Source: Dunaliella salina (Eukaryota > Chlorophyta > Chlorophyceae > Chlamydomonadales > Dunaliellaceae). From it: a stretch of DNA of 24,179 bases. Both the position numbers and the translations under genes were made by a program. Each line of letters opens with the position of its first letter. The first letter of the stretch is position 1. The notes under the pieces are model-generated. The model saw only the letters and a list, made by a program, of their open reading frames with translations, searched no databases and was not told the DNA's origin. Below are positions 1 through 20,606 of the stretch, piece after piece. The stretch spans positions 324,670 to 348,848 of the forward strand of contig MU069621.1 of the NCBI GenBank assembly GCA_002284615.2. Direction: 5' to 3'.

Positions 1-69
1 GGCTGGAGAGGAGGCGTTAAAAACGCATTCCACGGACTTCCCTGAGGGCATCTCAGGGAAAGCAACCAA

Positions 70-510
70 AAAACGCTGCTGAATACCCTAGACTATGGTG
101 GTCTTGCACCCTGCACACTGCTGAATACTTTAGACTGTGGTGAAATCTTTAGACCGACCAAAAAACACTGCTGAATACTTTAGACTGTGGTGGTCAAGCA
201 CCCTGCACACTGCTGAATACTCTAGACTGTGGTGAACACTTAAGGCCGACCAAAAAACACTGCTGAATACTTTAGACTGTGGTGAATAATTTAGACTGTG
301 GTGGTCAAGCACCTTGTACACTGCTGAATACTTCAGACTGTGGTGAATACTTTTGACCAACCAAAAAACACTACTGAGTACTTTAGTCTGTGGTGAATAC
401 TTTAGACTGTGGTGAATACTTCAAACCGACCAAAAAACACTGCTGAATACTTCAGACTGTGAATACTTTAGACTGTGGTGAATACTTTAGACTGTGGTAG
501 TCAAGCACCC
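70..510. repeat. minisatellite with about 19-bp core
   Basis: Variants of a 19-bp core, tgaatactttagactgtgg, are repeated many times. They are grouped in larger blocks that begin with accaaaaaacactgctg (near 158, 250, 360 and 430) and include variants with tcaagcaccctgcac. The array should lie in the USP intron downstream of the exon ending at 1503. I see no exon-derived sequence in it. Confidence 0.85.
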
Positions 511-519
511 TGCACCCTG

Positions 520-1323
520 TGCGCCTGAGCAGAGCATCAGGAAATCAGTCCCTGCCCTCGCATTGCTGCCCAAGCTGTAAGTTACCCCCTCTTGGAGCCC
601 TCCGTGAGAGCCTTGCACACTGTGCGCACGAGACACGCATCAGGTACTCAGTCACTGCCCCCTCACCACTGCCCAGGCAGAGGGTGGCCATCCCCTCTTC
701 AGGCCCACCTGCCTTTTGCAAACACACGCCCCTGAAGCGAAAGCATACCTTTCACAGGTGCATGCCATCGCAAACCCATGCATTCGTAAATGCACACCTT
801 CCACCAATGCATGGCTTCTGACGGAGCAAAATTCCGGGAATAGGCTTGCTCTCCAAGCCTTGCGCAGAGCCCTGGCTAGTACATTTGGTGGAAGTCCACA
901 ACAACAGCACAAGTGGAGTGCCTTGTCACGACCTTCAGGACATAAGAGTGAGTTGTGCCTTGTAGGGAACCGCGCCTGTTTTGCACTGTCGTCTTGCATC
1001 ATGCATCCAATCTCTTACATAAGCATGCGCTTTCTCAGGACCTGGGATCTATTTATATTTTTATACATAAAAGGCCCCCTGTAACATTTGCACGTGCTTT
1101 CCCGAGACCTGGGATCCTCACCCCTTCCTTGCCATGGCATGCATTCCAAACCACAAGCATTTTCTTTTCATGGCAGGCGCCTGTGCCCCTCACTGAAGCA
1201 GGTTGCATTCCCATAACCTTTTGTACATTTTGAGCACATGGGCTTCTGCAACAACAAAGCACTGAAGCCACGTTGCAGCATGTCAGATCCCTCCGATTCT
1301 ATGAGCATTTACGCATCCATGAT
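520..1323. other. intronic sequence, no exon recognised
   Basis: This should be part of the USP intron following the exon at 1503-1607. The next expected protein segment (the equivalent of plant GGISKLTHVDGRSMVINVEY) is not found on either strand. Short diverged repeats containing gacctgggat occur near 1044, 1113 and 1486. The open frames here show no family resemblance. Confidence 0.5.
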
Positions 1324-1380
1324 CACCTCGTGTGCCTTCAGCGGCACTGCCAGGCTGTTCATGTCAGTCATGGTGCGCAT
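1324..1380 (-). repeat. copy of the donor edge of the USP exon 1503-1607
   Basis: About 57 bp match the end of the real exon at 1498-1555, including the codons for MNSLAVP and a donor-like GAG/gtgatc in place of the real GAG/gtgagc. The copy lies 174 bp downstream of the true donor, carries small indels, and is presumably not an exon. Confidence 0.8.
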
Positions 1381-1502
1381 CCATACCCCTTACACATTTG
1401 CGAGTGCTCCCCAAGACCAGAGAAGCTCCACCTATACTTGCCATGGTATGCATCTGGCCGCCTTTCGCTAGCAGGTACTTTCCTATGACCTGGGATGCTC
1501 AC

Positions 1503-1607
1503 CTCCTGTGCCTTCCGGGGCACTGCCAGGCTGTTCATGTCATAGTCATGGCGTCCGCTCACACCCAGCGCCGCCACCAGCCCACGAAACACCAGTGCGT
1601 TGGTGTC
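1503..1607 (-). CDS. USP: USP exon (DTNALVF...[11 protein letters not shown])
   Basis: The exon is 35 codons, phase 0 at both ends. The acceptor is tgatttcag/GACACC and the donor CAGGAG/gtgagc. It encodes [15 protein letters not shown] followed by [20 protein letters not shown]. It completes the QDTNxL motif split across the intron (FFQ in the preceding exon) and carries the NSLAVPRKA block diagnostic of USP. An internal GGT/GTGAGC after codon 15 could act as a cryptic donor, and the upstream repeat units keep it. This is the last USP exon in the window. Confidence 0.9.
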
Positions 1608-3740
1608 CTGAAATCAAGCAGGCAGGAAAGCAGTGCAGTGTATGTTGTGGATGAGGCACACGCTCACACCCACCAGCACCAGTGCGTTGGTGTCCTGAAA
1701 TCAAGCAGGCAGGAAAGCAGTGCAGTGTGCGTCGTGGATGAGGCACACGCTCACACCCAGTGCTGCCATCAGCCCAAGAAACATCAGTGCATTTGCGTCC
1801 TAAAATCAAGCAGGCAGGAAAGCAGTGACGCGTACGTCGTGGATGAGGCACACACTCACACCCAGTGCGGCCACCAGCCCATGAAACACCGGGGCATTGG
1901 TGTCCTATAATCAAGCAGGCAGGAAAGCAGTGACGCGTACGTCGTGGATGAGGCACACGCGCAAACCCAGCGCTGCCACCAGCCCACAAAACACCAGTGC
2001 GTTGGTGTCCTGAAATCAAGCAGGCAGGAAAGCAGAGGCAGTACGAGTGCGTTGCGGATGAGGCACATGCTCATGCCTGGAGCCGCCACAAGCCTGGGGA
2101 GCACTCATGCATCTGAACACAAGGAAGCATGGATCACCATTTGAAGATAAGCTCAGCAGACAACTTCCCTCGTCCACCGCAAGCCTGCGCGGAAGCTAAG
2201 CCTGACAGACAGGCTCCTCAGACAGGCCCATCAGGAAGGCCTACTTCTACTGTGTCAAACTCACTTGGAAGCTAAGCCTGACAGGGAGGCTCATCGGGTA
2301 GGCTTTCTCAGGAAGGTCCACATCAAACTCGCATGAAAGCTCTTTACAGCTTCCCAAACCCAAATGAAGTGCTTCACTCCCGTTTTGCCAAAGCTGCTGC
2401 GTTTCAGGCTCACTTCTCAGACTCACCAGGAAGAAACACACCTACTTGAAGCGCTCCTTGTGCCACTTTCCGAACTCGTTTGAAGGGCTTCTGTCCCCTT
2501 AAGCCGAAGCCGCTATTTTGCAGGCTCACTTGGCAGGTGGCGGCTGGAAGAAGCACACCCACTTAAAAGCCCCTTTCTCCTTCCACTTTCCAGATCCTTT
2601 TGAAAGGCTTCCATCCCATCCTGCCAAAGCTGCTAATTCTCAGGCTCACCTGGAAGAAGCGCACACCCACATGAAGCCCTCCTTCTGCCACTCTTTAAAC
2701 TCGTGCAAGTCCTGCTCTGCCGAGGCCGCTGCTCATCAGGAAAACTTCACAGGCTCACCTGGAAGAAGCACACCCACTTGAAGCCCTCCTTCTGCCACTT
2801 CTTGGCCAAGCCAGAAGTGTGCAGCAGCGCGTGCACATCACCATGACCGTGCGGCTTGGTCTGTGGGCACAGTCCATGGAAAGCGATGGGAAAAATGAGA
2901 GCAGCATGTGAACCCCTCTGTGGTATTCGTGCAAGTGTGATTATCCATCCTACCATTGGTGCATGTGCACATCATTATGACCGTGCGGCTTCGTCTGCAA
3001 TCATGGAGTGGAACGGAATCAATGAGAGCTGCGCGCACACACCTCTGTGATCCATGCACATTGAGACTGTGCATCCCACCATGAGTGCATGTGCACGTCA
3101 ACATGTCTGTGGCACACGTGCACATGAGCGCACCATAAGCGCTCACAAGCGCACATCACCATGTCTGTGTCACATGTGCACACCACCACGCCTGTGGCAC
3201 ATGTGCACATCAGCACACCATAAGCGCTCACCAGTGCACATCACCATGTCTGTGTCACATGTGCACACCACCACGCCTGTGGCACATGTGCACATCAGCA
3301 CACCATAAGCGCTCACCAGTGCACATCACCATGTCTGTGTCACATGTGCACACCACCATGTCTGTGGCACATGTGCACACTAGCACACCAGAAGCGCTCA
3401 CCAGTGCACTTCACCATGTCTGTGTTGCAATGCACATCACCATGTCTGTGTCGCAATGCACACCACCACGCCTGTGGCACATGTGCACATTAGCACACCA
3501 TAAGTGCTCACCAGTGCACATCACCATGTCTGTGTCGCAAGTACACATCAGTGCACCATAAGTGCTCACCAGTGCACATCACCATGTCTGTGTCACATGT
3601 GCACACCACCACAATTTCTCACGAGTGCATATCACCGCGTCTGTGTCACTAAGTGAGCAAGTGCAAATTGAATCCAGGCCAAGATACTGTGACCTTTGAG
3701 GAAAGAAGCAAAGGAAGAATGAAAGATACACGCACGCACG

Positions 3741-3827
<87 letters not shown>

Positions 3828-6800
3828 GCACAGCAAAGGGGTCCTTGGGGTCAAGGCCCAGGGTGGCCTCATTGTCCACTAAGCATGCCACCTTCTCTTG
3901 CTTGATCAGCGTAACCTGCGACACAGTGTCCAGTGTGAATATCGTGATAAAACAAATGATAACGATTCTATCGGCGAGTGTAAAATGATTGTAATTCAGG
4001 TAATTCATGATCATATTGTAGGAGAATCGTGTATAGAAAGTGACAGAATGCATGTGCCAATCATTACACCCAGAAGCACATGGCGCATGCTTCCTGTGGA
4101 AGGCCCGCGCGGAAAACATGCAAGCATTCCACATCTTTGTCCAAGCCTCTGTTGCTACGCTGCAGTTAATGGACTGGAGTGCAATAAAAAAACTGGCCTG
4201 GTTGTGCAAGATGATGTGCTGGATCTGTGCAAAACAAATGGGCGGAAGTTCATGGACCCCTCATGCTTGTCTGGTTTGCCGGAACTACGTTAGCAAAAAG
4301 TCCGGGGAAAGTGGGAATCGAACCCTGGATCTCCAGGTCTCAGGCAAAAACCCAAACCAAAATTCGTCATTTTTCCAATTTGCCTGGACCCCACTTCAAA
4401 AAATTTCCAGCATTCTCTGTCAAACGTACAATTGTTTCCGGTTGCCGGACGAAGTGAACATCCCTGGCGGAAGTGTATTTGAATAGCTGACCTTGTGCAC
4501 AAAATGATGCACAAGAGTGCAGTACCAGACTGGGCAGGAGATGAGCAGTTGAGCGACTAATCAGGGTGCACCAGACGTGCCGGACCCGTGCACAAAAATG
4601 GGCTGGAGTACAGTTTCACCTCGTGCACAAGATGACATGCAAGATAGTGCACCAGACGCAGGTAGCATCGCAGTTGAAAAGTTGACCTTGTTCATGAGAT
4701 GATGCAAAAGACAATACAAACAAAAAAAATGGGATTGAGTGGATTGAGTTGAAAAGCGGACCTCGTGTACGCGAAGATGCGCGAAGTAATGTACTAGACA
4801 TGGGGCGGAGTCCAGTTGAACAGCTAATCAGGGAGCACCAGGCCGCGTTTGGGCATAGTGCAGCTTCCTTCCCTTACCTTCCATGCTGCACACAATGTTT
4901 AGAATCCAGGATGCATTTGAGCTGCAAGTTCACGCAAGTCCTGATAGTGGTTACAGCTGGATGGCTGGTGGTTGGGTAGGGACAACAAGAAAGGCACCAT
5001 AAGCCATTTGCCATGCCTGATCTTCCTGACAAAGTGTACAGCAGTCTTCCCAAAAATGGGTAAACAGTAACAAATGGAGTCATGCTGGGTGTCTGTAAAA
5101 GGATTGCGGGGGACAAACAAACTGAACAAACTGATTGTCAAGCACAACAATCTACAGACTTTCTGTGTACTTTACACCCCCCCCCCCCCCCAAAAAAGCT
5201 CCAAAGCTTCTTCCCTTGCTTCCAAAAGAAAAGTTCCTTAGCTTCTTCCCTTGCTTACCTCATCTATACTGCACCAACCCATGGAAACGCGCACCCACAC
5301 AGCATGCATCCTCACCTGTGACTTGTCGAGCCCGTAGTACGAGTTCTCTTCCAGCAACTGGTGCGTGCGTTCGTGCGTGTCGTCACTGGTCATGATGGCA
5401 AAAGGAAGAGGCTTGGAGGCGGCTGAACGGGCCTGCAGGTGTGAGTCACGCATGCGACAAATGATGAAAAATTTGTATAATTGTCAAGTCATTGCTGGTT
5501 ATGATGGCAAAAGGAAGAGGCTTGGAGGCGGCTGAACGGGCCTGCAGGTGTGAGTCACACGTGCGACAAATGATGAAATTGAGAAACTTTGTATTCATGT
5601 CAAGTCACGCTGGTCATGACAATTAGCAAAAGGGACAGGCTCGGAGGGATCTGAACAACCGGCCTGCAGGAGTGTGTTAAATGCAAGGCAAATGATGGAT
5701 ACTGGCGTGTGTGCATGCATGTCATCACTGGTCATGATGGCAAAAGCAAGAGGCTTGGAGGCGGCTGAACGGGCCTGCAGGGGTGAGTCAAGCGTGCAAC
5801 AAATAATAAAAAATTTTATATTCATGCATGTCGTTACTGGTCATGATATGTAGCAAAAGGGACAGGCCTGGAGGGAGCTGAACAAGCGGCCTGCAGGAGT
5901 GTGGTACATGCTCAGCAAATGATGGATACTGGTGTGCGTACGTGCATGTCATCACTGGTCATGATGGCAAAAGGGATAGGCTTGGAGGTAGCTGTACAGG
6001 CCTGCAGGTATGTGTTCCATGAACAGCAAACGATGAAAACCAGCATGTATTCATGTGTGTCATTGCTGGCTGTGATGGCAAAAAGGAAAGGCTTGGAGGC
6101 AGCTGAGTTGGGCCTCAAGGATGTCCTTGGTGGTGGCTTTGGTGGTGGTCTGGTGGTGGTAGTGGTTTTGGTGGTGGTGGTTCAGATGATGGCTTTTTTG
6201 GTGTTGCATGCTCAGCAAGCGATGGAAATTTCTGTTGCAAACATGCATGTCGACGCTGGTCATCATAGCAAAAGGGGGGCTTTACCAAAGCAGCAAGGCA
6301 GTTTGAGTGGGCTGTGCGCAGAGCAAAGTGAAGTGGACGCACGCGGCACTCACACTCTCACACCTGCAAGCAAAGCCAGACTGTGTATGTGTAATGGGCT
6401 GAGGCTAGGGCACTTGCAGAAGGAAGGACACATGTTGGTGGTTTTGAGCAGAGGAGGGTGGGGGGGCACGATGAGGTACAAGCAAGAGCATACCAGCCAT
6501 CAGACCATCTAGATCACTTGATGATATGTGTGGGTAAAGTGGTTTGTGATGGTCCAAATAAATAAGAATCATTAATGGATGAAATGTACCTGGAAATAGC
6601 GCAAGATCTAGATCACTTGATGACATGTGTGGGTGAAGTGGTCTGTGATGTTCCAAACAAATAAAAATCATTAATGGATGAAATGCATTTGGAAATAGCG
6701 CAAGACGCAAGACAATCCATTCGTAAGTTACGTTCAAGGGGCACTTGCGGTGTGAAAAAGCATGCTGGCGATTTGCAGCAGAGGAGGAGAGTGGGGGCAA

Positions 6801-9800
6801 CAAGCAAGAAAACAACAAAGTCAAGCATGGAGCCAAGTACAGAATTTTGTGAACGAGCAGAACCCAATGCAGATAGAATGATGAAGGGCAACAGTTCTTC
6901 AGGGTATTTGGGGGGAAAAAAAACCAAACGAGGCCAAGGCTGGCCTTGAATACCAGGCATGTGCTGCTTTTTAGTACAGCTTCATCATAGTCAGGAAACA
7001 TTAACATCCCGAGGTAGATGTCAATTAAATCGAGAATGCAGCCGAGTGCAAGAAGCTTTGAGCCAGCAGAACCCAAGCCGGACAGAATAATGAAGGGCAA
7101 CAGCTCTACGGGTGCTGGTTGGCCTGATGCTGGGGAGCCCCCGAACCAAGGCAACGCTTGACCCTGAGAATCAGGCCCTTGCTGCTTCAGAGACCAGCTT
7201 CATCATGGTCAGGAAGCATCAACAATCTGACCACGATGAAGCTGTACTTGGAAGCAGCACAAGCTGGGTGATTTTTGGCAAAATTTTTTGGCAGAACAAT
7301 TAAGGGCAAAAGCTCTTCATGATATAGGGGGGCCCCCGAACCGAGGCCAGCCCGGCCTCGGAAACCAGGCATGTGTGCTTCCCAGAAGCTCTATCGTAGC
7401 CAGGATGCACCAACATCCTGAGGTAGATGTCAATTGAATCGAGAATGCAGCCAAGTGCAAGAAGCTTTGAGCCAGCAGAATCCAAGCCAGACAGAATAAT
7501 GAAGGGCAACAGCTCTTCAGGGTATCAGGGAGCCCTCGAACCGAGACTTTGGCTTAGAAAACCAGGCGCGTGCTGCTTGCCAACATCCCCACAACGACGA
7601 AGCTGTACGCTGTACAAGACAGCAACACAGGCCTTCTTTCCAAGGCCAGGCATTACCTCGGTTCGCCCCCCCCCTCCCCCCGTGCATCAACATCCTGACC
7701 ATAATGGAGCTGTAACAGGCCAGATTTTGATTAGGCGTCACCTCAGCTCCGATGCCCGGCAGCAGCTGACTGTCAATTTTTTACACTCTGACGACTCACA
7801 TACTTATTAGAATATTTGAGCAACTGTTTTTGCTCGTGGAAATATTTACATCCTGAAAATGATGAAGTTGTACTAAGAGGCAGCACAGACCGGTTTTCAG
7901 GGTGCAGCTCCACCTTAATTCATGTGTCTTCCTTGTTTCAAGAGTGGCCTTCTTTTGCCATCATACGTAGCAGCCTAACTAAATGGCTGAAAAGGAGGGT
8001 GAAATTTTTTTACCAAGGACGGCACGTGTAAATTTTGGGCTGGACCCCCCTGACACCTCTAGTGCCCCAATCTGGACAACAAGGGTGCCAATCTGCTCCT
8101 CTTTTAAATAGCTATCAACCTGCATACTCCACGCAATGAAATGTTGATACACAGCAGAGTTATAGGGCAAAAATTGAGGAGCGGACGCACATGCATACCT
8201 GACCTACCAGGCACCCAAAATTGGCACGTGAGTCAACAAATTGCCCTCCTGATTTAAGCAAGCAAGAATACATCATATATTGTCACTATCCTGGGAGTTT
8301 GGATTGATTTGCTGCATGTTTGCCTCCACACCCCTTGCTGCTCGGACCCTTGTGCGCTTGGCACTGACTCCCAGTCATGCACACAGATCCAACCCCTTTC
8401 ACTAAATTTGCACAGAGAGGGTGCCAATTGAGAGCTTTTGAGCCCAGGAATCTGATGATACATTCAACAGTCTGTAGAATTAGCTCGGAAAAATTCCAGA
8501 GGGGGGGTCCCTAAGAGCCGGAAGCTCCCCGACCCCCCCTCCCCCCCCACCCCGGGACCCCTCCAATTGGACTCATATATGTCCCAATCGATAGCTTTTG
8601 AGCTCAGGATTCTGAATTTATAGTTCTCAATAGGATTGCCATCCAAAAATTACAGGAACGAGACCCTCCTGGGCGAAGGTCATATCCCAGCAGCCATCCA
8701 TGAAATACTCGAAACAATTTCAAGTGTCCCAGTCAGTGTTATTACTGGAACAACATCATCAGGAACAGCTGTGAGAACCTCCTTCAGGATCAGAAGCAAT
8801 TGTCCCATTTCATACTGGAAAAATGTGTGCTGGTGACCCTTGCATTCGGCGAACAGTTTTGCCTTTTCAACATCGATGCACGCCGCTGCATGTCAATTGT
8901 CATTTCTCAAAATAGACATGTATGTAGAGACGTTTCTCGAACATCAATTGTCATTTCTTAAAATTTTCAAATATCTGACGCATGAAAAGCATGGCACAGG
9001 CTTGCCTGCAAAGCCAGGGTGTGAGCGGCATATAGTCCTAGGAACAACTGCCATGTTCGGCACAAACCGTCACGCCTTTTCAACATCAATGCACACTGCT
9101 GTACATAAGTCGCCATTTCTTAAATTAGGAGACATGTGAGTGGTGCATGTAAAGTAAGGCGCAGACATGCCTGCAAAGCCAGGATGTGAGTGGCAAACAG
9201 TCCTAGGAACGACTGCCATGTTCGGCACAGTCACGCCTTTTCAAAATCAATGCACATAGCTATATTTCAGGCACAGACTAGTACTCGAGGCACAGACTTA
9301 CCTGCAAAGCCAGGATGTGCGCAGCATACAGCCCCAAGAATGAGGTCCCTGTCGCACTCTCACATGGTAGTGCCACCTGCACAGGCAGCACAAGCGAAGC
9401 GTACATGCAGGACTGTTGTGGGTCGATGTGGGTCCATGTTGTTGTTGACGCAAGTTGTCCCAGCAATATTCACCAGTCACCTCATGCCTGTTAGGGGCAC
9501 CTGAGGATTCGTTAGGAAGGTGAGCACCCGTCTCTGGGAGCCCTGGCGAGCACGAGGCTTGCAGAGACTCGGAAGGCCTATTTGGCAGAACGAAGAGACG
9601 GAAATCTGGCGGGCGCAACCAGAAAACCGAGCATGAGGCTCGGCGAGCTCGAGACTCGCAGAGTCTCTCGGATATTTCAGATGTTGGGTGATGCCATTTA
9701 CCCATGGCTAGTTATGAACAGCAACACCTCTGCTCAACTGCCCTCTCTTATGACATGCTGTTGCAAGCTTGCTGCTGGTTTTGAGAGGACAGGTACATGT

Positions 9801-12800
9801 TGTTGTCGAAGCTGTTTCTCACCCGGATTCAACTCACACGCGCAGACACGCTTTCGACATGCTGTCGCAAACTTGCAGTTGGTTTGAAGAGGACTATCAC
9901 GTGTTGTCGACGCATTACCACCTGGATTCAACTCACAACTCACAGGCACGGTTTTGGCATGCTGTTGCACATTTGCCACTGATGTGAGAGGACTGGCATA
10001 CTTGTTGTCGAACCTGTTTCTCACCTGGATTCGACTCACAACTGCAAACATGCTTTTGACATGCTGTTGCAAGTTTGCCACTGATTTGAGAGGACCAGAA
10101 AAGCCGCTGTCATGCAATCTCGCCCGAAGTCGGCTCACAACTTGCAAAGACGCTTTTGGCATGCTGTCCTGGACTTGATGCCGGTTTGAGAGGACGGGTA
10201 CAAATGCTGGCAACAGCCCAAATGCCGGAGAAGTCTGCTGCATTGCAAGCTTGAGGGGTGACTTGCACACCAGGCCATGCCTTATTGCCTCTTTGGGGGG
10301 GTCAGCATCCTCTGAGCACCTCCCTCGCCTCTTTTGCAAAGCTGCGTTGTGCATACTCATTCCTATTCTGCTATGCACCTTGTGTAGCAACCTCTTCTTT
10401 TCAATTCCATGCAACACGTGTTTAGCCCCACCACTTCTCTACCACCATTTTTTTATGCGGACCCCACCATTAACAAGCCATGAGCAGTGATTCCCTGAAC
10501 AAATCCAGTANNNNNNNNNNNNNNNNNNNNNNNNNNNNNNNNNNNNNNNNNNNNNNNNNNNNNNNNNNNNNNNNNNNNNNNNNNNNNNNNNNNNNNNNNN
10601 NNNNNNNNNNNNNNNNNNNNNNNNNNNNNNNNNNNNNNNNNNNNNNNNNNNNNNNNNNNNNNNNNNNNNNNNNNNNNNNNNNNNNNNNNNNNNNNNNNNN
10701 NNNNNNNNNNNNNNNNNNNNNNNNNNNNNNNNNNNNNNNNNNNNNNNNNNNNNNNCACACACACACACACCTTGATGCCGCTGTAACCCAGGCGCTCCCC
10801 AAGGCCCCCCGCCACCAGCACAAATGCAGACTGCCCGGCCTCTTGCAAACCACCCTGTAACAAAGTGGATGCAAGAGCGCACACCAGCAAATGTGGAAAC
10901 ATGTGAGTGACCCATGTAGCTCAAGACCCTGCCACCTGCGCAAATGCAGACTGCCCGGCTTCTTGCAAATTACCCTGTCACAAAGAGCATGCGTTTTGGT
11001 ATGAACCTTTTCCTTTGTGAGCTCTATTTCACACTTGTTTGCTACCTCGTGTATCCTTAAAAGAAGTATATTAGCCTATAGTAGCACATGCCAGCAAATG
11101 TGAAAACATGCAAGTGGCACCATGCAGCTCAAATTGTCACAATGAGTATGTAGCACACACCAGCAAGTGAAAATAATGGGAGTTGCACTATGCACTATAC
11201 AGCCCAAGCCCACAAACAGGTCAAACCATCACAGTGGCAGGCAGGACCATGGGCACACCCCTTGTGTGGACGTTTGCCTAACCTAGCGATGTGACCTTCA
11301 AGCTTGATGTTTCAAGGAGAGCGCTGACCACGAAACTTGATATTTCAAGCAGAAAGCTGACCATGAGGTCATGGGAAGGTTTCAGGTACGCCAAGCAGAA
11401 TGCTGGAGACAGCGGAGGGGCATCCATGCGAGGTGTTCAGGGGAGCCACAACAGACATTCAAGCAGTATTAATGACAGGCATAGCTGCACTCCCTCAATC
11501 CTTCAATTGACACCTCGACATGGGGACTTAAAGGGAGTCAGTGGAGAGGCATCAAGACACGGTTGAGGGAAGAACCAGCAGACAACCAAGCAGAGTGAGT
11601 AATGGGCACAGCTGCGCTCTCTGAGCCCCCATGTTGACACAATTACAAAGGAAGTTAGCAGGAAACAGCGGAGAGGCATCAACATGACACTTGAGAGAAG
11701 CACAACAGACAATCAGGCAGAGTGAGTCACACGGACACAGCTGCAATCTGAGCCCCCCCGTTTGACACATATACTTAGGGAAAGAGCAGGAATCAGCGGA
11801 GAGACATCAACATGACACTTCAGAGAAGCACAACAGACAATCAGGCAGAGTGAGTCACACGGATACAGCTGCAATCTGAGCCCCCCCGGTTGACACATTT
11901 TCATAGGGAAAGAGCAGGAATCAGCGGAGAGGCATCAACATGACACTTGGGAGAAGCACAACAGACAATCAGGCAGAGTGAGTTAAGGACACAGCTGCAC
12001 TCTTTGTGTTCCAATTGACCTTGACACCCTTACACAGGTAACCACTCTGCAATTCGCGCAACCCATCCCTGGACATCACCTCCCTGGAGCATCATCATCT
12101 CCAGAACAACCCTCAAAAGAATGTCACACCCCTGCCTCGCTCACCTGCTCTAGGCTCAGAAACTCCGGGGATCCAAAATCCAGCCGCTCCCCATGTGGTA
12201 TGCTGGGAGTGAATCCCTCAAAAGCATTCTTGCCTGTGTGTGGATTGAGGGTGCAGGGCGCGCATTGAGTGCAGGGTATGCAAAGTTAACAGGTGACCCC
12301 CTCGAAAGCGTTCTTGCCTGTGTGTGCATGGAGTGCAGGGTGTGCATGGTGTGCATGAAGTGCAGGAAGTATGCATTGACTTTGCAGCGCTCTTGCCTGT
12401 GTGTGCATTGAGTGTGCAGGGTGTGCATGGAGTGCAGGGTGTGCAGGGTGTGCATGAAGTGCAGGAAGTGTGCATTGACTTTGCAGCGCTCTTGACTGTG
12501 TGTGCATTGAGTGTGCAGGGTGTGCATGGAGTGCAGGGTGTGCAGGGTGTGCATGAAGTGCAGGAAGTGTGCATTGACTTTGCAGCGTTCTTGCCTGTGT
12601 GTGCATTGAGTAAGCATTGAAAGGATGAGAGGGGAGGGCAGTAGGTGACGGTTGGCAACACCTTGGGCTGCATCAAAAATGCGTCAAGTGAGTCGCTTTG
12701 AGCGAGCCGGGTCTTATAGATGGCAGCACTTCTGGCTGTATCAAGGGGGCCTCATGTGGGCTGCCTCCGCCCAGTGGCACAATGGATCCTTGCATGAAAC

Positions 12801-14127
12801 TCGTGGTTGACAAGATGAGGAAGTTTGAAAAATAATGCCTGTTTCGTTGACTGTTCATTCCATTTGCAGCTCAACTGCTGCTTGTTCACACAAAGCTTGC
12901 AGCCGTTGCTTTGCAGGTATGCATGCAGGATGGCGAAGGGGGGCTGCCACTGCTCCTGATAAGGCGCAAGCTCCGCCTCAGCTCCTGCCATCAACCACAT
13001 GCCATACCCTCAGTAGCAAATTGAGGGTGCCTGCGCTTTTATCTCAAAGGCAGGCACCATCAGTTTGCTGTTGAGGGTATGAGATGTGATTGATGGCAGA
13101 TACCACTGGGACAGCCAGATGAAATCCTTTATATGCACAAACATGAAGATCACGTCCTCATCATCTGTTTTACCCATGGATTTAATTGTTTCTCATCAAA
13201 ATTGTCAATGATGACTATGTGTGCTGACTTAAATGTTCTTGAATATACAAGCAACAAAGGTTTACTCATCTCCCTGTTGCAGTAGTTCAAAGCCGTCTCG
13301 AGGGGCTAATCTACTTACTTTACCCCTCACCCAAATCAAACATCACACTGGTGTGTCTAACTCAAGAGCTTTGAACACAAGAAGTCTGTGCACTCCCATA
13401 AAAGTGACGCGGCATGTTTGAAAGGCTTGCATTGATGCCTGTGCAAGAGACTTCAACACACTTCCCCCTGACACTGGGCATGCGAGATGGCAGCGCCCAG
13501 CATCACGGCCTGGATAATTATTAATCCTATGCTCGCACATGCGCACCTTGACGGGCATCCTTCAGCAGTTGCCGTGCATTGTTGATGTATGCTGCAATGC
13601 CCTTGGGGTAGTGTGAGTCCAGCTGCTGCAGCTGCGCAACTAGTCTCCGCTTGTCTGCATCCTGTGTTCCTGGGGCAGGCCATGACTCGAAAAGGCTGCG
13701 TTGGCCTAGCTCGATGAGCTGTGCTATGAAGTGTTGCTCCTGTGGGGCCAATGAGTTTGCACAGGAGAGAGTGAAATGATTCAACAGAGTTCATCACCTT
13801 TGCAGCATCAAAACATCAGGACACGTGTGTACATGTACACACGGTCAAAGGCAGAGAGAGCGCTGGAGAGTGGGATACCTGGATGCAGGAGGCATGCATC
13901 ACCTATCCCACTAAACAGATGTAGAGCAGCACACGTAGATGCCACATCATGTCCGAAATAAGCTGCCTTGCTGTGCATGCTGAGGCATGGGAATGGGACA
14001 ACTGTTCAGCTCATGAGCAGTCCAGTGTGGCCCCTTGCTTACCTTGGCACTGAAAAGCTTTTCATTCCCTTTCAACACCTCTGCCAGCAAGGCACCGTGG
14101 TTGCCAGGAGACTCCTCATGACGGTTC
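1503..14127 (-). CDS. USP: UDP-sugar pyrophosphorylase, N-terminal half, spliced gene (span; exons listed separately)
   Basis: USP makes UDP-sugars (UDP-Glc, -Gal, -GlcA, -Ara, -Xyl) from UTP and the sugar 1-phosphate, and in plants it is a cytosolic salvage enzyme of about 600 residues. Nine minus-strand exons join in compatible phases. They give, in order, the motifs [43 protein letters not shown] (nucleotide-binding loop), [47 protein letters not shown] and [11 protein letters not shown]. These follow plant USP, as remembered, with almost no gaps, and the last two motif groups separate USP from ordinary UGPase. The C-terminal half lies beyond the left edge. Introns run from 303 to 3869 bp and are mostly tandem repeats. 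The start is not settled (see 14043-14637). The family call is strong; splice sites are read by eye. Confidence 0.9.
1608..2070 (-). repeat. 105-bp array of copies of the acceptor edge of USP exon 1503-1607
   Basis: Four copies lie directly upstream of the exon, with the GACACC-equivalent starts spaced 87, 105, 105 and 105 bp (near 1694, 1799, 1904 and 2009). Each unit holds the intron end tgcctgcttgattncag, the first 27 to 45 nt of the exon, the internal gtgag-type sequence (diverged in the outermost copy), and about 45 nt of intron-like sequence ending in ctgctttcc. The AG before GAC survives in every copy. The 87-bp unit has lost 18 bp of the exon-derived part. Confidence 0.9.
2170..2758 (-). 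repeat. array of copies of the donor edge of USP exon 2759-2860
   Basis: Three clear copies, with caggctcac landmarks near 2405, 2521 and 2641 against the real one at 2750, repeat the end of the preceding exon. Read on the minus strand they contain the [17 protein letters not shown] stretch and then the donor. The nearest copy keeps ttccag/gtgagcctg. The next has an insertion, and the farthest has cctg/gtgagt. More diverged relatives (aagctaagcctgaca) continue to about 2170. Spacing is about 109-120 bp. Confidence 0.85.
2759..2860 (-). CDS. USP: USP exon ([13 protein letters not shown]...KWVCFFQ)
   Basis: The exon is 34 codons, phase 0 at both ends. The acceptor is gtgcccacag/ACCAAG and the donor TTCCAG/gtgagc. 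It carries [12 protein letters not shown], the conserved PHGHGD signature of the UDP-sugar/UDP-N-acetylhexosamine pyrophosphorylase fold that contacts uridine. [18 protein letters not shown] follows, matching the plant segment before QDTNGL. Both edges are copied into the flanking introns. Confidence 0.92.
2950..3650 (-). repeat. 85-bp array related to the acceptor edge of USP exon 2759-2860
   Basis: The copy nearest the exon (about 2950-3000) reads attgcag/acgaagccgcacggt on the minus strand, close to the true acceptor and first codons. Beyond it, units with ccataagcgctca at 3133, 3218, 3303, 3388, 3498 and 3556 (85, 85, 85, 110 and 58 bp apart) carry shorter derivatives such as cacag/acatggtgatgtgcac and cacag/gcgtggtggtgtgcac. 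The exon origin is clear for the first copy and inferred for the rest. Confidence 0.8.
3727..3825. repeat. (CA)n/(TG)n microsatellite abutting a splice donor
   Basis: A nearly pure CA tract (pure from about 3753) is preceded by CACG and CGCG variants. On the minus strand it reads (GT)n and begins exactly at the donor of the USP exon 3826-3915. The long cysteine/valine open frames across it are artefacts. Confidence 0.97.
3826..3915 (-). CDS. USP: USP exon ([12 protein letters not shown]...DPKDPFAVQ)
   Basis: The exon is 30 codons, phase 0 at both ends. The acceptor is gtgtcgcag/GTTACG and the donor GTGCAG/gtgtgtgt. It encodes [20 protein letters not shown] then DPKDPFAVQ, aligning without gaps to plant [20 protein letters not shown]. 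The donor's first bases are also the start of a long GT run, so the effective +3 to +6 donor context is gtgtgt rather than gtragt. Confidence 0.92.
3916..5315 (-). other. USP intron, mixed content
   Basis: This 1.4-kb intron has no additional exon that I can support. It holds a B-box-like site (4314-4324), short diverged repeats at about 4480-4860 built on cctcgtgcacaagatgatgc and agtgcaccagac, and a C14 run near 5177. AT content is higher at 3930-4060. Confidence 0.6.
4303..4345 (-). other. tRNA-like B-box sequence, possible SINE or tRNA relic
   Basis: The minus strand contains ggttcgattcc (4314-4324), an exact match to the RNA polymerase III B-box consensus GGTTCGANNCC found in tRNA T-arms. 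Only three base pairs of a T-stem form around it. I cannot find a convincing A box or cloverleaf upstream, so this is not an intact tRNA gene. Confidence 0.35.
5316..5432 (-). CDS. USP: USP exon ([13 protein letters not shown]...YYGLDKSQ)
   Basis: The exon is 39 codons, phase 0 at both ends. The acceptor is cacacctgcag/GCCCGT and the donor TCACAG/gtgagg. After a variable linker ([10 protein letters not shown]) comes [20 protein letters not shown], matching plant [20 protein letters not shown], a core segment of the sugar-phosphate/nucleotide site. SYYGLDKSQ then leads to the next exon. The first 60 to 70 nt and the acceptor are repeated many times upstream. Confidence 0.93.
5433..6290 (-). 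repeat. array of copies of the acceptor edge of USP exon 5316-5432
   Basis: About seven copies have ctggtcatgatggca landmarks at 5495, 5610, 5728, 5837, 5954, 6066 and 6256 (real exon 5386). They are spaced 109-118 bp apart, the last enlarged to 190 bp by a GGT-rich insertion at about 6125-6185. Each contains cctgcag/gcc followed by up to 70 nt of exon-like sequence through the ATGACCAGTGA region. Two unit types appear to alternate at first: gcccgttcagccgcc (exon-like) and gccggttgttcag variants. Nearly all keep the AG. Confidence 0.9.
6505..6703. repeat. two-copy 99-bp tandem repeat
   Basis: The segment from ctagatcacttgatgayatg (6509 and 6608) through aatcattaatggatgaaatg to ggaaatagcgcaag occurs twice in a row with few differences. 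It is intronic and no exon source is seen. Confidence 0.85.
6840..7580. repeat. about 205-bp tandem repeat, four copies
   Basis: Units contain gcagaacccaagccggac, gaatratgaagggcaacagc, a G or C run, an accaggcatgtgctgctt stretch, and gaggtagatgtcaattraat. Landmarks lie near 6858, 7066, about 7275 (partial) and 7475. Minus-strand translations such as [11 protein letters not shown] recur between copies, but I recognise no protein and no exon edge. Confidence 0.8.
7600..8660. other. intron interior, no gene recognised
   Basis: This is non-array sequence inside the 3.9-kb USP intron. It has C-rich homopolymer patches near 7667-7680 and 8500-8560, the latter with G7 and several C6-C8 runs. No open frame resembles a known protein, and no RNA gene is seen. 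Confidence 0.5.
8680..8814 (-). other. orphan exon-like open frame, unrecognised
   Basis: After an acceptor-like tttttccag the minus strand reads [18 protein letters not shown] and onward for about 44 codons to a TGA, with sensible amino-acid composition. USP continuity between the exons at 9302 and 5432 needs no residues here, and no good donor follows. It may be a relic of another gene or chance. Confidence 0.2.
8840..9301 (-). repeat. array of copies of the donor edge of USP exon 9302-9376
   Basis: Two copies (about 8996-9050 and 9161-9215) repeat the exon's end. On the minus strand they read ctcacaycctggctttgcag followed by gcaagc and gcatgt, where the real exon has gtaagt. Associated intron sequence (ccttttcaacatcaatgcac) recurs near 8860, 9076 and 9239. 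The copied donors therefore carry GC rather than GT. Confidence 0.85.
9302..9376 (-). CDS. USP: USP exon ([13 protein letters not shown]...HILALQ)
   Basis: The exon is 25 codons, phase 0 at both ends. The acceptor is ctgtgcag/GTGGCA and the donor TTGCAG/gtaagt, a near-perfect consensus. It encodes [17 protein letters not shown] then AAHILALQ, matching plant VALPRETTTGTCFLQHY and ESILALQ. It supplies the segment after the glycine-rich loop. Confidence 0.92.
9740..10200. repeat. about 102-bp tandem repeat, five copies
   Basis: The landmark catgctgttgca lies near 9754, 9858, 9958, 10060 and 10160 (104, 100, 102 and 100 bp). Units also contain ttgagaggac and ctggattcaactcacaa. It lies in the USP intron between the exons at 10771 and 9376. 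I find no clear match to either exon edge. Confidence 0.88.
10511..10755. other. assembly gap (245 N)
   Basis: A run of N is flanked on the right by (CA)n that leads straight to the USP donor at 10771. Protein frames drawn through it are meaningless. Its position suggests an unresolved CA/GT microsatellite. Confidence 1.
10771..10854 (-). CDS. USP: USP exon with nucleotide-binding loop ([16 protein letters not shown])
   Basis: The exon is 28 codons, phase 0 at both ends. The acceptor is ttgttacag/GGTGGT and the donor ATCAAG/gtgtgtgt. It encodes [11 protein letters not shown] then [17 protein letters not shown], the glycine-rich UTP-binding loop of the UDPGP superfamily, with the USP-type GERLGYxGIK ending. 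It is the single strongest identifier in the window. The donor runs into a GT microsatellite and then the assembly gap. Confidence 0.95.
10880..11250 (-). repeat. copy of the acceptor edge of USP exon 10771-10854 plus short repeats
   Basis: About 60 bp ending near 10985 repeat the exon start on the minus strand: gtgacag/ggtaatttgcaagaagccgg against the real ttacag/GGTGGTTTGCAAGAGGCC, 120 bp upstream. Around it, a diverged element, ccagcaaatgtgraaacatg, recurs near 10886, 11091 and 11160. Confidence 0.8.
11290..12010. repeat. 128-bp tandem repeat, five copies
   Basis: The landmark gagaggcatc lies near 11415, 11544, 11671, 11799 and 11927 (129, 127, 128 and 128 bp). Units also contain acaacagacaaycaggcaga and a C-run after ctgag. 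They fill the USP intron just downstream of the exon at 12145-12233. I do not see the exon edge in them. Confidence 0.9.
12145..12233 (-). CDS. USP: USP exon ([20 protein letters not shown])
   Basis: The exon is 89 nt, phase 1 in and phase 0 out. The acceptor is cacacacag/GCAAGA and the donor GAGCAG/gtgagc. The split glycine is completed from the previous exon. It reads [20 protein letters not shown] then SPEFLSLEQ, matching plant KNPYDGFSPSVPSGENLTFG and the variable segment before the nucleotide loop. It is too short to stand out as an open frame but is clear by homology and phase. Confidence 0.9.
12234..12620 (-). repeat. 99-bp array carrying copies of the acceptor of USP exon 12145-12233
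   Basis: The minus-strand acceptor tgcacacacag/gcaagarygct recurs at about 12312, 12391, 12490 and 12589 (79, 99 and 99 bp apart). The copy nearest the exon extends further into coding sequence (gcaagaacgctttcgagggg). The rest of each unit is rich in gtgcatgaagtgcaggaag on the plus strand. The 99-bp period leaves several frames open by arithmetic, which explains the long repetitive open frames. Confidence 0.88.
12986..13098. repeat. inverted repeat: 49-bp arms, 15-base loop
   Basis: The left arm 12986-13034 (tgccatcaaccacatgccat...) and right arm 13050-13098 are reverse complements at about 42 of 49 positions with no gaps, separated by gcttttatctcaaag. As RNA this is one long hairpin inside a USP intron. 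It could be a small MITE-like element or a microRNA-type precursor. No target-site duplication was established. Confidence 0.85.
13547..13739 (-). CDS. USP: USP exon ([21 protein letters not shown]...)
   Basis: The exon is 193 nt, phase 0 in and phase 1 out. The acceptor is gccccacag/GAGCAA and the donor CGTCAAG/gtgcgc. It encodes [17 protein letters not shown], a charged linker, [20 protein letters not shown] and KDARQ, aligning to plant LLENGQSHLFQQWPELG and LNSSYPGGLAAYIKTAKELL. In-frame TGA codons lie just upstream with no ATG between, so the exon must begin by splicing. Confidence 0.92.
14043..14127 (-). CDS. USP: probable USP 5' exon ([20 protein letters not shown]...)
   Basis: The exon is 85 nt, phase 2 in and phase 0 out. 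The acceptor is gcatttcacag/GAACCG and the donor GCCAAG/gtaagc, both strong. It reads [20 protein letters not shown] then NEKLFSAK. Joined in phase to the next exon, NEKLFSAK plus [13 protein letters not shown] aligns without gaps to plant NLGLLSPDQIELAKILLENGQ, which supports this exon as USP. The 15 or so residues before that have no counterpart that I recall and would form an N-terminal extension. Confidence 0.7.
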
Positions 14128-14351
14128 CTGTGAAATGCATGCACAAACTCACACTCAACATGAAAGTCCGCGGCAATGGGAAGCTGTGCACGAGCGCAAG
14201 TGGAGGGCAGATGTTGGAGTGCAGGGGAAGAGGGTGTTCCATGCAGCACATGAGGTGACACATATTTTAGGCACAGAGATGGTTGTGTGCATGCAGAAGC
14301 AGGCAGTCAGCGTCCATACCCAGCATCGAGCCGCGTGCTTTCATCACCCAC

Positions 14352-14403
14352 TTGTATGCTCTGTAGGTCACGATCCCTGCTGCACTGGCAACGGCAGCGC
14401 CCC
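14352..14403 (-). CDS. candidate small 5' exon of USP
   Basis: The minus strand has a good acceptor, gtacaacacag/GGGGCG, and, 52 nt on, a donor ACAA/gtgggt. In phase 1 in, phase 2 out, it reads GAAVASAAGIVTYRAY and joins the exon at 14127 in frame. Other frames and a later donor (ATGCTGG/gtatgg, exon end 14320) are possible. It could equally belong to a different transcript. Confidence 0.35.
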
Positions 14404-14522
14404 CTGTGTTGTACAGACACGGGGAGGGAAGTTGAGAGTTTTTCCCCGGTTCTCGAGAAGAGGAAAGGGCTTCTTCCAGGTGTGTTAGCAGGAGGCGTAC
14501 ATGAATGCATCGTCCTACACAC

Positions 14523-18269: not shown

Positions 18270-18385
18270 CTACTGAGTTACTCTGCTATCCCAGTCATTA
18301 TTGTGCTTGCCCTCAGGCACATTTTTGCCTGCTGCCCCCTGGATGGCTGCAACAATAGTGCCAATGGCAGCACCAAGCCCAATGC
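18270..18385 (-). CDS. terminal exon of gene 2 (glycine zipper, stop)
   Basis: The exon is 116 nt, phase 1 in. The acceptor is catctcttcacag/GCATTG. It reads IGLGAAIGTIVAAIQGAAG then KNVPEGKHNNDWDSRVTQ and TAG. The GxGxxxG...GxxG spacing is typical of a glycine zipper, resembling the end of the preceding exon, which is why I place both in one gene. Phase fits a donor at 20248 or at 20311. Confidence 0.6.
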
Positions 18386-20571
18386 CTGTGAAGAGATGTG
18401 CATGGAACACAACACAGCAATACAGATCGATCTTGAATTCCTCATGTTGCCTTTGTGGATCCCAATGCAATCCACAAAACAGTGCAATCCATAGTGAAAG
18501 CAGTGCAAACAGTGAAAACAGTGCAAACAGTGCAAACAGTGAAAACAGTGCAAACAGTGCAAGCAGTGAAAACAGTGCAAGCAGTGCAAACAGTGGAAAA
18601 AGTGAAAACAGAGCAATCCACAGTGAAAACAGTACAATCCACAAAACAGTGCACAAAAGGAATATTGCATGCAAAAAAGGAATGAAAGGGAAGCACATGC
18701 ACACCTGTGTGTGTGCAGAGCATGAACCCATAGAAAGCGCCAAAGATTTGAAATCTACTTACTTTCTATAAAAAAAAGCCGGACAGGCAGTCCAGCCTAT
18801 CTCAACCATCATTGCTGTATTTTGTGATGTGAGGTATAAAGGAACCGCAACAACTGAGCAGATCAGATGAAGCTCAAAAGCAGCGAGGATACTTGATGCT
18901 CAGATGGAGGTGTGCACAAGAGTGTGGAGCAGGAGGCTGCCTGCAACTATTTTGTGGCTGAATCTTCCAATATGACAGCACTTCAGGGCTGAGAACACAT
19001 TCATGAAGCAAAATTCAGCAGCGTCCAGCAAATTGTCGCACACTAAGTGCTTCCAGCCTGGATCTGGCACCCACTGCCAGCACCCCTGGCTGTTTTCTTC
19101 CCCTCTTAGCAAAGGCAGGCCCTGGTGGGACATCGCTATGCCCTTAGGTTGATGTAAAAAACAAAAACAAAAAGGCCCCCAGATACTTGCTGCAGCCCCC
19201 AGGATACACAAAATGGTGCCACATCAGTTACATACAATGACCACAAAGAAGAAGAAGAAGATGTATGTTTGCCCTTAGGCCGCGTGCATTAAGGAAAGAG
19301 CCACAAAGAAAGCAAGGCGTGAGATCTTCAAAGCTCACAGCTGACGTCACTTGCTGCACCAAAAAGGAGCGAGCCGCTTTGACCTCTCAGAACAACCCAC
19401 AACTCACCGAGGGGACCGAGACCAGCCAAGGCACCAACCGCTAGCCCCAGGAGTGTGCCAAATGGAGCCATGTATGCCACAGCCACGATGAGGCTCCTGC
19501 GCTTGTAACATTTCTGGACCTGAGCAGGACAGGTGGAGCACGTCCAGGAACTCAGGAGAAGCTGCTAGCCCCCAGAGTGTGTCAAACGGAGCCATGGTAT
19601 GCCAAAGTCACAATGGGGTTTCTGCGCTTGTAGCATTTCTGAACCTTTTGAGCAGGACAGGTGCGGCACATCAAGGAACTCAGGAGAAGTTGGGCAGACA
19701 CGGGAACTGTCATGTCCCTGATGATGAGGAAACACTCAACATGCTCATCACCATTGATTGCATGATGCAAAGTTTAAGAGACTGAACTGATGTAAAGTGT
19801 ACTCCACGTCCTATGTCCTGCCGATGCCAAGGAATCATAGCTGAAATGGAAAGAGGAGTAACCAATGCTCTCTATTATCTGTCTCTTGATGCGCCAATTG
19901 ATCAACAGCAGGCATGAAAGACTCTTCGGATCGGATGCAAAGGTCTCCCAGTTTCTTGTCCTTTTGGCAAGATGTGAACGATATTGCACATCATCAGGCC
20001 ATTGATCTCCTGGACAACGAAAGCACATCAGCAAGCATGTCAGCAAACAGGAAAGGTCAAAGCATCCACAATGGGGTCCTCAGTGCACGGATCTCACAGA
20101 TCCTGGATGAAATTAACATGAGCAGGCATGAATTATGCAAGAATCCCTCGATTGCTTGTCCGATCAGGATGAGTTGTTGTGCCAGCCAAATTGTCATCTG
20201 GCCAGTAACTTCCAAACACCAAAAGCTTGACAACAAGCACGTGATACAGGTCAAAGCATCCACAACCTGCTCCCGGTCCATGCGTGCAGAGCGCTCGCTG
20301 ATTCTGCCACCGCCGATGCTGCTCCCCACAGCTGCGCCGCATGCTGCAGCCAATGCAGCCACCCAAATCCTAGCTGCACCCGCCAAGCTCCCCAATGCTG
20401 CCCCTACTGCTGCACCCCATACCCCGCCAGCTGCTGTGCCCTCATTCTCCAGCTGCATCAGCTTGCTGTACGCAGAGTGCTGCGCCCAAGGCTGTGCAGC
20501 CCCATACCCTCCATACCCTGTGGACTGTACATCTTGGTGCTGCTGCTGCAACTGCTGCTGCTGCTGCTGCT

Positions 20572-20606
<35 letters not shown>

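Follow-up and report, generated by a model that had tools for sequence, protein, structure and literature searches.

Tandem copies of exon edges in the introns of a UDP-sugar pyrophosphorylase gene of the green alga Dunaliella salina

We analyzed a window of 24,179 nt from Dunaliella salina (assembly GCA_002284615.2, contig MU069621.1, positions 324,670–348,848 of the forward strand); all coordinates below are those of the window. The minus strand carries a gene for UDP-sugar pyrophosphorylase, an enzyme of sugar metabolism, with an open reading frame of 285 aa spliced from eight exons. Residues 7–285 of this frame match the solved UDP-sugar pyrophosphorylase 9uml (E 1.3e-96), and the frame also matches the Pfam family UDPGP (E 2.5e-16). 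Judged by these homologies, the "USP" of the original prediction is UDP-sugar pyrophosphorylase, and its reading as a ubiquitin-specific protease (PF00443) is ruled out. Exon 1, the first with homology support, lies at 13547–13739, followed on the minus strand by exons 2 (12145–12233), 3 (10771–10854), 4 (9302–9376), 5 (5316–5432, 117 nt), 6 (3826–3915), 7 (2759–2860), and 8 (1503–1607). Two further 5' exons (14043–14127 and 14319–14404) are predictions based on splice signals and not on homology, and array calling found no array in their two short predicted introns (191 and 303 bp). The window contains an N gap at 10511–10755, beside a simple repeat.

Each 30-nt exon edge was compared with the adjacent intron and with 100 dinucleotide shuffles. 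Eight of 15 edges scored above all 100 shuffles, and the remaining seven were not counted. These eight are exactly the junctions for which copies had been predicted, namely, the acceptors at 1607, 2860, 5432, 10854, and 12233 and the donors at 1503, 2759, and 9302, so that exons 7 and 8 are copied at both edges, and exons 1 and 6 at neither. Alignment of every exon edge to its own intron, the check proposed with the original prediction, likewise yielded matches for eight edges, out of 19 when the two predicted exons were added. The copying of exon edges in this gene is thus a real observation at eight junctions.

Altogether, we identified 23 junction copies, all on the minus strand. The exon 2 acceptor array (12209–12611) contains four, with the exon-like first base at 12317, 12396, 12495, and 12594 and with AG in all four. 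On exon bases alone, this junction is the weakest of the eight (score 30 against a shuffle maximum of 26) and shows no match in the 24-mer profile, its support coming from alignments that include the intron side, with 85% identity over the nearest copy. The exon 3 acceptor array (10807–11132) has a single junction copy at 10974, with AG; the exon 3 donor, with a 10-nt match only (p 0.03), was excluded from the counts. In the exon 4 donor array (8861–9343), the copies next to 9170 and 9005 both have GC, not GT. The largest number of copies, six (5541, 5663, 5774, 5890, 6001, and 6113; AG in each), was found in the exon 5 acceptor array (5363–6276), where up to 76 nt of exon are included and units of 109–118 nt lie within a repeated pattern of about 227 nt, that is, both repeated and higher-order units are present. 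The exon 7 acceptor array (2831–3100) has one junction copy at 2994, with AG, and the exon 7 donor array (2340–2800) has copies next to 2649 and 2426, both with GT, and next to 2543, with CC at the aligned place. Finally, the exon 8 acceptor array (1556–2094) consists of 105-nt units with four copies (1694, 1799, 1904, and 2009; AG in all), and in the exon 8 donor array (1076–1551), GT is present in both copies, next to 1326 and next to 1121. The nearest copies lie 84, 87, 109, 109, 120, 131, 134, and 176 nt from their junctions, close to the predicted spacing of mostly 85–120 bp and up to 174 bp. A by-eye look for microhomology at the breakpoints, at exons 5 and 8 only, gave no result.

One further minisatellite (3088–3649, minus strand) includes no junction and carries, at four places, 21 nt that match the exon 7 acceptor edge; this edge scores 32 there, and 202 other exon 30-mers reach 19 at most. 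These four matches were excluded from the 23 junction copies.

Within the gene, the copies are strictly local. None of the 19 edges matched the intron at the opposite end of its exon, and none of 162 pairings of an edge with a non-adjacent intron of the same gene gave a match; the latter result speaks, within this gene, against introner-like dispersal, that is, related copies at unlinked sites. Exon interiors had no 24-mer matching the adjacent intron when starting at least 48 nt from the acceptor or at least 36 nt from the donor edge. The exon content of the copies is partial: the copied exon part spans 25–76 nt in the longest pair per junction (18 nt in one exon 8 pair), and no whole-exon copy was found among the aligned pairs, the maximum of 76 nt being that of the 117-nt exon 5. 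Tandem duplicated, mutually exclusive exons were rejected because they would require a copy of the entire exon together with its two splice sites, and no such copy is present. Some copies keep an acceptor followed by an open stretch of exon-like code, as would be expected if they are, or once were, extra alternative exons; however, given this partial content and the location of all 23 copies inside existing introns between colinear exons, with a spliced frame that matches orthologues without any added exon, we consider this explanation to have a negligible probability. A tblastn search (E up to 1) with seven of the 120 listed orthologues matched exon fragments inside introns at E values of about 3e-7 to 0.6, some with stops (for example, 4e-5 at 5780–5706 and 0.007–0.01 at 3000–2965), and also returned unrelated low-complexity matches (E 0.02–0.9). 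Because orthologous proteins from other algae match several of the exon fragments within the introns, the direction of copying appears to be from exon to intron.

The arrays were called from repeat pairs with a separation of 40–500 nt, a length of at least 35 nt, and an E value of up to 1e-4, thresholds that were chosen after seeing the data. The gene contains 18 tandem arrays, eight of which include a splice junction, whereas random placement (three null versions, 4,000 placements each) predicts 1.99, 2.36, or 2.51. The observed excess of junction arrays is therefore three- to fourfold, with P values of 2.5e-4, 7.5e-4, and 1.2e-3 for the three nulls, which are optimistic given that the window was chosen because the pattern had been seen there. 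When the repeat search was repeated with the exons masked, 18 arrays were again recovered and all eight junction arrays kept an intronic counterpart. Three of these eight reach the exon edge, and five end 25–55 nt short of it, so that in the latter, the link to the exon depends on those alignments in which exon bases take part. The proposal that the arrays are seeded at exon/intron boundaries, beyond ordinary minisatellite growth, is supported in part, by the excess over random placement, but weakened by the 10 arrays without a junction and by the small number that reach the edge under masking; array growth away from the edges evidently also occurs, and the edges are not the only seeds. Similarly, the statement that the introns are largely built of exon-edge copies applies to the intron at 1608–2758, the only one composed mostly of such copies (79% in junction arrays), but not to the introns overall, in which 3,514 of 13,133 bases (27%) lie in junction arrays.

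These numbers leave some room for ordinary minisatellite turnover without any edge preference, whereby intronic and single-junction duplications survive and a chance excess was spotted by eye. Consistent with such turnover, more than half of the arrays contain no junction, arrays of any kind make up 56% of the intron sequence, and both the selection of the window for the pattern and the post hoc thresholds would favor a spurious excess. The arrays resemble ordinary intronic minisatellites in being head-to-tail runs of diverged units; the unit is related to an exon, unlike in such minisatellites, in the eight junction arrays and in the one with the 21-nt exon 7 piece, and the other nine arrays include no junction. 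The three- to fourfold excess and the persistence of all eight junction arrays after exon masking argue against this explanation, as does the distribution of simple repeats: only two (GT)n runs of at least six units occur in the window, both on the minus strand and both beginning exactly at a donor. The first is a microsatellite at 3728–3825, with its first base at the exon 6 donor, and the second begins at the exon 3 donor (visible part, 10756–10770) and enters the N gap. These runs also fit the seeding of arrays at boundaries. We regard edge-independent turnover as a possible but rather unlikely explanation.

A predicted gene upstream provides an additional case. From the acceptor edge of its predicted exon at 19408–19519 (minus strand), 80 nt recur at 19564–19644 in the upstream intron, with 68 of 81 columns identical and a spacing of 125 nt. 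A second acceptor is borderline (score 24, just above the null maximum of 23 that was obtained in 200 mononucleotide as well as in 200 dinucleotide shuffles; 17 nt, GCAGCAG-rich) and was not counted. One clear and one borderline case among six predicted edges counts in favor of edge-independent turnover and weakens the case for seeding at boundaries.

The second gene bears, furthermore, on whether the copies could be an assembly artefact caused by wrongly joined or duplicated reads in a repeat-rich gene that contains a gap. The N gap beside a simple repeat is compatible with such an error, but the case in another predicted gene and the divergence of the copies, 19 of 23 of which are 79–93% identical to the real junction, make it highly improbable. 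The similarity of the copies is not simply a matter of distance: at exon 8, the farthest copy is 98% identical and nearer ones 90–96%. This blurs the order of events and makes gene conversion a possibility.

In line with the predicted filling of the introns with decoy splice sites, the splice dinucleotide, GT or AG, is kept in 20 of the 23 copies. All 16 acceptor copies retain the AG (32 of 32 bases; the corresponding share is 84% for other intron cells and 87% for exon cells), and four of the seven donor copies retain the GT. Full retention of AG might indicate that the copies are in use, with decoys kept as regulated poison splice sites or spliceosome lures. However, two other of 66 offsets are equally fully conserved, so that the AG retention is suggestive at most and strong selection for it was rejected; in addition, three of the seven donor copies lack GT, copies within one array are not independent, and the pooled change rates fit neutral drift. 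We thus consider functional use of the copies very unlikely. If used, all 23 decoys would bring a stop, but stops would also arise at 533 of 547 other spacings within these introns, and hence the stops carry no weight.

Compared with the real junctions, the copies have changes at 65 of 630 sites (0.103) at codon positions 1 and 2, 54 of 317 (0.170) at position 3, and 156 of 898 (0.174) on the intron side, with an intron to position 1+2 ratio of 1.68 (bootstrap 1.27–2.60 over eight junction groups). Faster change on the intron side and at position 3 than at positions 1 and 2 is predicted for a drifting copy beside a selected exon, and in these pooled rates, the copies look neutral. Selection on the coding content of the copies was rejected, since synonymous drift in the real exon would produce the same excess at position 3. 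The neutral order of rates applies to the pool and not to every group: in the exon 8 acceptor group, the rates for the intron side (0.098) and positions 1 and 2 (0.094) are nearly equal, and in the exon 7 donor group, position 3 (0.071) is below positions 1 and 2 (0.084).

Taken together, the copies at the eight junctions probably result from serial tandem duplications that straddle a splice junction and are tolerated because the exon-proximal splice site would still be the one used. Short duplications, with units of about 85–175 bp, would have occurred one after another across the junction, and with the exon-proximal site remaining in use, the mRNA and protein would stay intact. By contrast, a duplication inside an exon would alter the protein, and that of a whole exon would risk an extra exon, so that junction-spanning and purely intronic duplications would be the kinds that survive. 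Thereafter, the copies would accumulate changes as neutral parts of the intron, most of them still with decoy splice sites. Less certainly, selection would preserve the exon-borne copy, and the exon edge could thereby serve as a lasting seed for the renewal of decayed arrays; the excess of arrays at edges would be accounted for in this way. A much broader and speculative extension, which we put forward tentatively and consider unlikely as it stands, is that intron growth throughout the genome of this alga starts from exon edges as seeds that renew themselves. Selection on the exon would leave an intact template beside every splice junction, and arrays across the junction, ranging from donor (GT)n runs to units of more than 100 bp, would arise, decay, and arise again as a main route to long, decoy-filled introns.

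The original prediction knew of no named system of this kind, but there are precedents. A tandem duplication across an intron–exon boundary has been described in potato (Ma, Lan and Niu 2016, PMC4974935); in the excerpts of that report, as in the algal gene, the boundary is crossed and the acceptor, polypyrimidine tract, and exon edge are carried along, and the duplicate gave rise to a new intron and inserted exon sequence, with RNA-seq support. In the algal gene, by contrast, the copies lie within existing introns, no new intron is needed, an array can have as many as six junction copies, and the copying affects several junctions of a single gene. The Rogers model, in which a duplicated AGGT exon segment becomes a new intron (PMC3443670, PMC4974935), resembles the reading proposed for the algal gene in that tandem duplication beside splice sites generates intron sequence, but, as outlined in those excerpts, the duplicated segment is exonic, whereas here it comprises exon edge and intron. 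In two green algae (chlorophytes), excerpts of PMC3887541 describe intronic tandem repeats that crowd toward intron ends, with abundant GT/AC, similar to our case in location and in the inclusion of GT/AC; those excerpts do not state that exon sequence or the junction lies within the repeat unit, as both do here. Among the matches listed in a search of titles and abstract beginnings of open-licence PMC papers, a set with few subscription papers, none described intron lengthening through copies of the intron's own splice junctions. The probable type of mutation, tandem genomic duplication, is known, and the outcome differs, being intron lengthening rather than intron gain.

Intron lengthening is mostly attributed to transposons and random insertion. 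Copying of junctions would be a route by which introns lengthen without a change in the protein. If this route is a regular one, introns would be made in part of the edges of their own exons, with near-perfect decoy splice sites, and would offer a natural test of how the spliceosome chooses among several nearly identical sites. A simple genome-wide prediction follows; an annotated long-read assembly of any related alga is enough to check it.

Splicing of eight homology-supported exons on the minus strand, numbered 1 to 8 (13547-13739, 12145-12233, 10771-10854, 9302-9376, 5316-5432, 3826-3915, 2759-2860 and 1503-1607), yields a single open frame of 285 aa, which is assigned to UDPGP in Pfam and aligns over residues 7-285 with the solved UDP-sugar pyrophosphorylase (USPase) structure 9uml (E 1.3e-96). 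Among the best 120 of 2,291 matches, the top named relatives are chlorophyte, the first being Chlamydomonas eustigma (68% identity, 78% of the query), with Chlamydomonas sp. UWO 241 at 61% identity over 94% of the query. Two further 5' exons on this strand, 14043-14127 and 14319-14404, are predicted from splice signals, the latter with a by-eye likeness to the N-terminus of C. eustigma USPase. The 3' portion of the gene falls beyond the window.

We aligned the 30 nt of each exon edge to the adjoining intron and found that 8 of the 15 USPase edges scored above all 100 dinucleotide shuffles. These are exactly the eight junctions named in the original prediction, according to which the introns are largely built from tandem copies of their own exon edges: the acceptors at 1607, 2860, 5432, 10854 and 12233 (exons 8, 7, 5, 3 and 2) and the donors at 1503, 2759 and 9302 (exons 8, 7 and 4). 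With the two predicted 5' exons added, 8/19 edges matched their own intron, none of the 19 matched the intron on the far side of the same exon, and none of 162 edge-intron pairs involving other introns of the gene matched. On the acceptor side, matching 24-mers fell from 48/120 starting within 12 nt of the edge to 10/120 at 36-47 nt and none beyond; on the donor side, they fell from 29/120 with distance, and none matched from 36 nt onward. Exon 2 had no match in this profile; copying of its acceptor is supported by alignments that extend into the intron side. When the longest pair is taken for each junction, the exon portion spans 25-76 nt (18 nt in one exon 8 pair), no whole-exon copy was present among the junction pairs in the self-comparison, and the copy nearest each junction lies 84-176 nt away.

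Two donors without such larger copies carry a different repeat. The only (GT)6+ or (AC)6+ runs in the window both start exactly where an intron begins on the minus strand, one extending from the exon 6 donor at 3825 downward (3728-3825) and the other from the exon 3 donor at 10770 downward into the N gap (10756-10770). In the available text of a study of two green algae, introns are described as rich in GT/AC repeats, with repeats in general commoner towards the intron ends (PMC3887541).

Tandem arrays that include an exon/intron junction (junction arrays) occupy 3,514 of 13,133 USPase intron bases (27%), and all tandem arrays together 7,419 (56%). The junction-array share is 79% in intron 1608-2758, 33% in 5433-9301, 29% in 12234-13546, 28% in the part of the last intron inside the window, 25% in 2861-3825, 22% in 10855-12144 and 0% in the four remaining introns. 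Four listed sites in the minisatellite at 3088-3649 match a 21-nt stretch of the exon 7 edge; aligned to this minisatellite, the 30-nt edge reaches a score of 32, compared with a maximum of 19 among 202 other exon 30-mers. Counting the minisatellite, about four fifths of intron 2861-3825 would be exon-edge derived. The last, incomplete intron also holds a dense array of a AATACTTTAGACTGTGG-like unit (65-519), which includes no junction.

Self-comparison of bases 1-14404 identified 18 tandem arrays, 8 of them junction-including. When units, double units or whole arrays were placed at random (4,000 placements each, rejecting those that fell inside an exon, covered one completely or landed on the N gap), 1.99, 2.36 and 2.51 junction arrays were expected, with P values of 2.5e-4, 7.5e-4 and 1.2e-3, to be read with array thresholds fixed after the data were seen and a window selected for showing the pattern. 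With exons masked beforehand, 18 arrays were still found and each of the 8 junction arrays had a counterpart, three reaching the exon edge and five ending 25-55 nt short; thus, slower exon change is not what makes the junction arrays visible.

Seven orthologous proteins from the 120 listed were run against the window by tblastn (E cut-off 1) and matched the true USPase exons plus intronic fragments, for example at 5780-5706, 6007-5933, 3000-2965, 2594-2544, 2015-1962 and 1365-1279. Taken singly, the fragments match weakly, with E values from about 3e-7 to 0.6, and a small number of unrelated sites of low complexity were matched as well (E 0.02-0.9). The fragments share order and register with the adjoining exon, and several contain stops. 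Judged from these alignments, the junction copies, that is, intronic repeats of an exon edge with its splice site, are derived from exons.

There are 23 junction copies, 16 acceptor and 7 donor. All 16 acceptor copies carry AG, whereas the aligned place in donor copies holds GT in four, GC in two and CC in one. The AG conservation stands out, but is only suggestive, because two other offsets of 66 are equally conserved and copies inside one array are related. Use of any of the 23 copies would introduce a stop, but 533 of 547 other spacings would do the same. The pooled change rates between copy and junction (0.103 at codon positions 1+2, 0.170 at position 3 and 0.174 on the intron side) are compatible with dead copies next to a selected exon: if the copy alone drifts, positions 1+2 would record the changes of one lineage, position 3 would add the synonymous drift of the exon, and the intron side would reflect drift in both copy and original. 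Individual groups vary: the intron rate nearly equals the 1+2 rate for the exon 8 acceptor, and position 3 has the lowest rate for the exon 7 donor. The arrays have a higher-order structure, with 109-118 nt units within a 227-nt pattern at exon 5, and 105-nt units plus one of 87 at exon 8. The best-matching exon 8 copy (98%) is the most distant one; thus, array growth was no simple outward march.

The neighbouring upstream gene, also on the minus strand, whose exons are predictions without homology support, contains one clear case among six predicted edges: 80 nt from the acceptor edge of exon 19408-19519 recur in its upstream intron at 19564-19644 (68/81 columns identical, spacing 125 nt; score 36 vs a shuffle maximum of 20-21). 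A second edge is borderline (24 vs 23) and lies in repetitive sequence; the remaining four gave no copy signal against shuffles. Predicted exons 14319-14404, 18310-18386, 19408-19519 and 20268-20924 encode glycine/alanine-rich, membrane-helix-like stretches, and an array of the 9-nt unit AGTGCAAAC (18493-18637) lies upstream of a predicted exon of this gene. At 22701-23166 lies a glutamine-rich open frame of coiled-coil-like character, in which a 183-nt unit, divisible by three in length, is present in 2.5 copies; a Pfam search of this frame with an E cut-off of 0.01 gave no match.

The simplest account is a series of short tandem duplications. A duplication across one junction would leave the splice site present twice and, if the exon-proximal site is still used, the mRNA and protein would be unchanged and the intron one unit longer. 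Duplication inside an exon would alter the protein, and whole-exon duplication would risk an extra exon, costs that fit the absence of both from the USPase gene. The exon, as a preserved template, may also account for the excess at edges. Published work recognizes tandem genomic duplication as a real route to intron gain (PMC3443670), and in the potato RdRp gene, as far as the available account goes, the duplicated segment spans an intron-exon boundary (PMC4974935), as do the USPase segments. Among the open-licence PMC titles and abstract openings listed, we found no report of longer introns loaded with junction decoys as a pattern. Unlike the new intron described in potato, the outcome in USPase is that existing introns are lengthened and full of decoys; thus, it resembles tandem genomic duplication in its working without amounting to intron gain.
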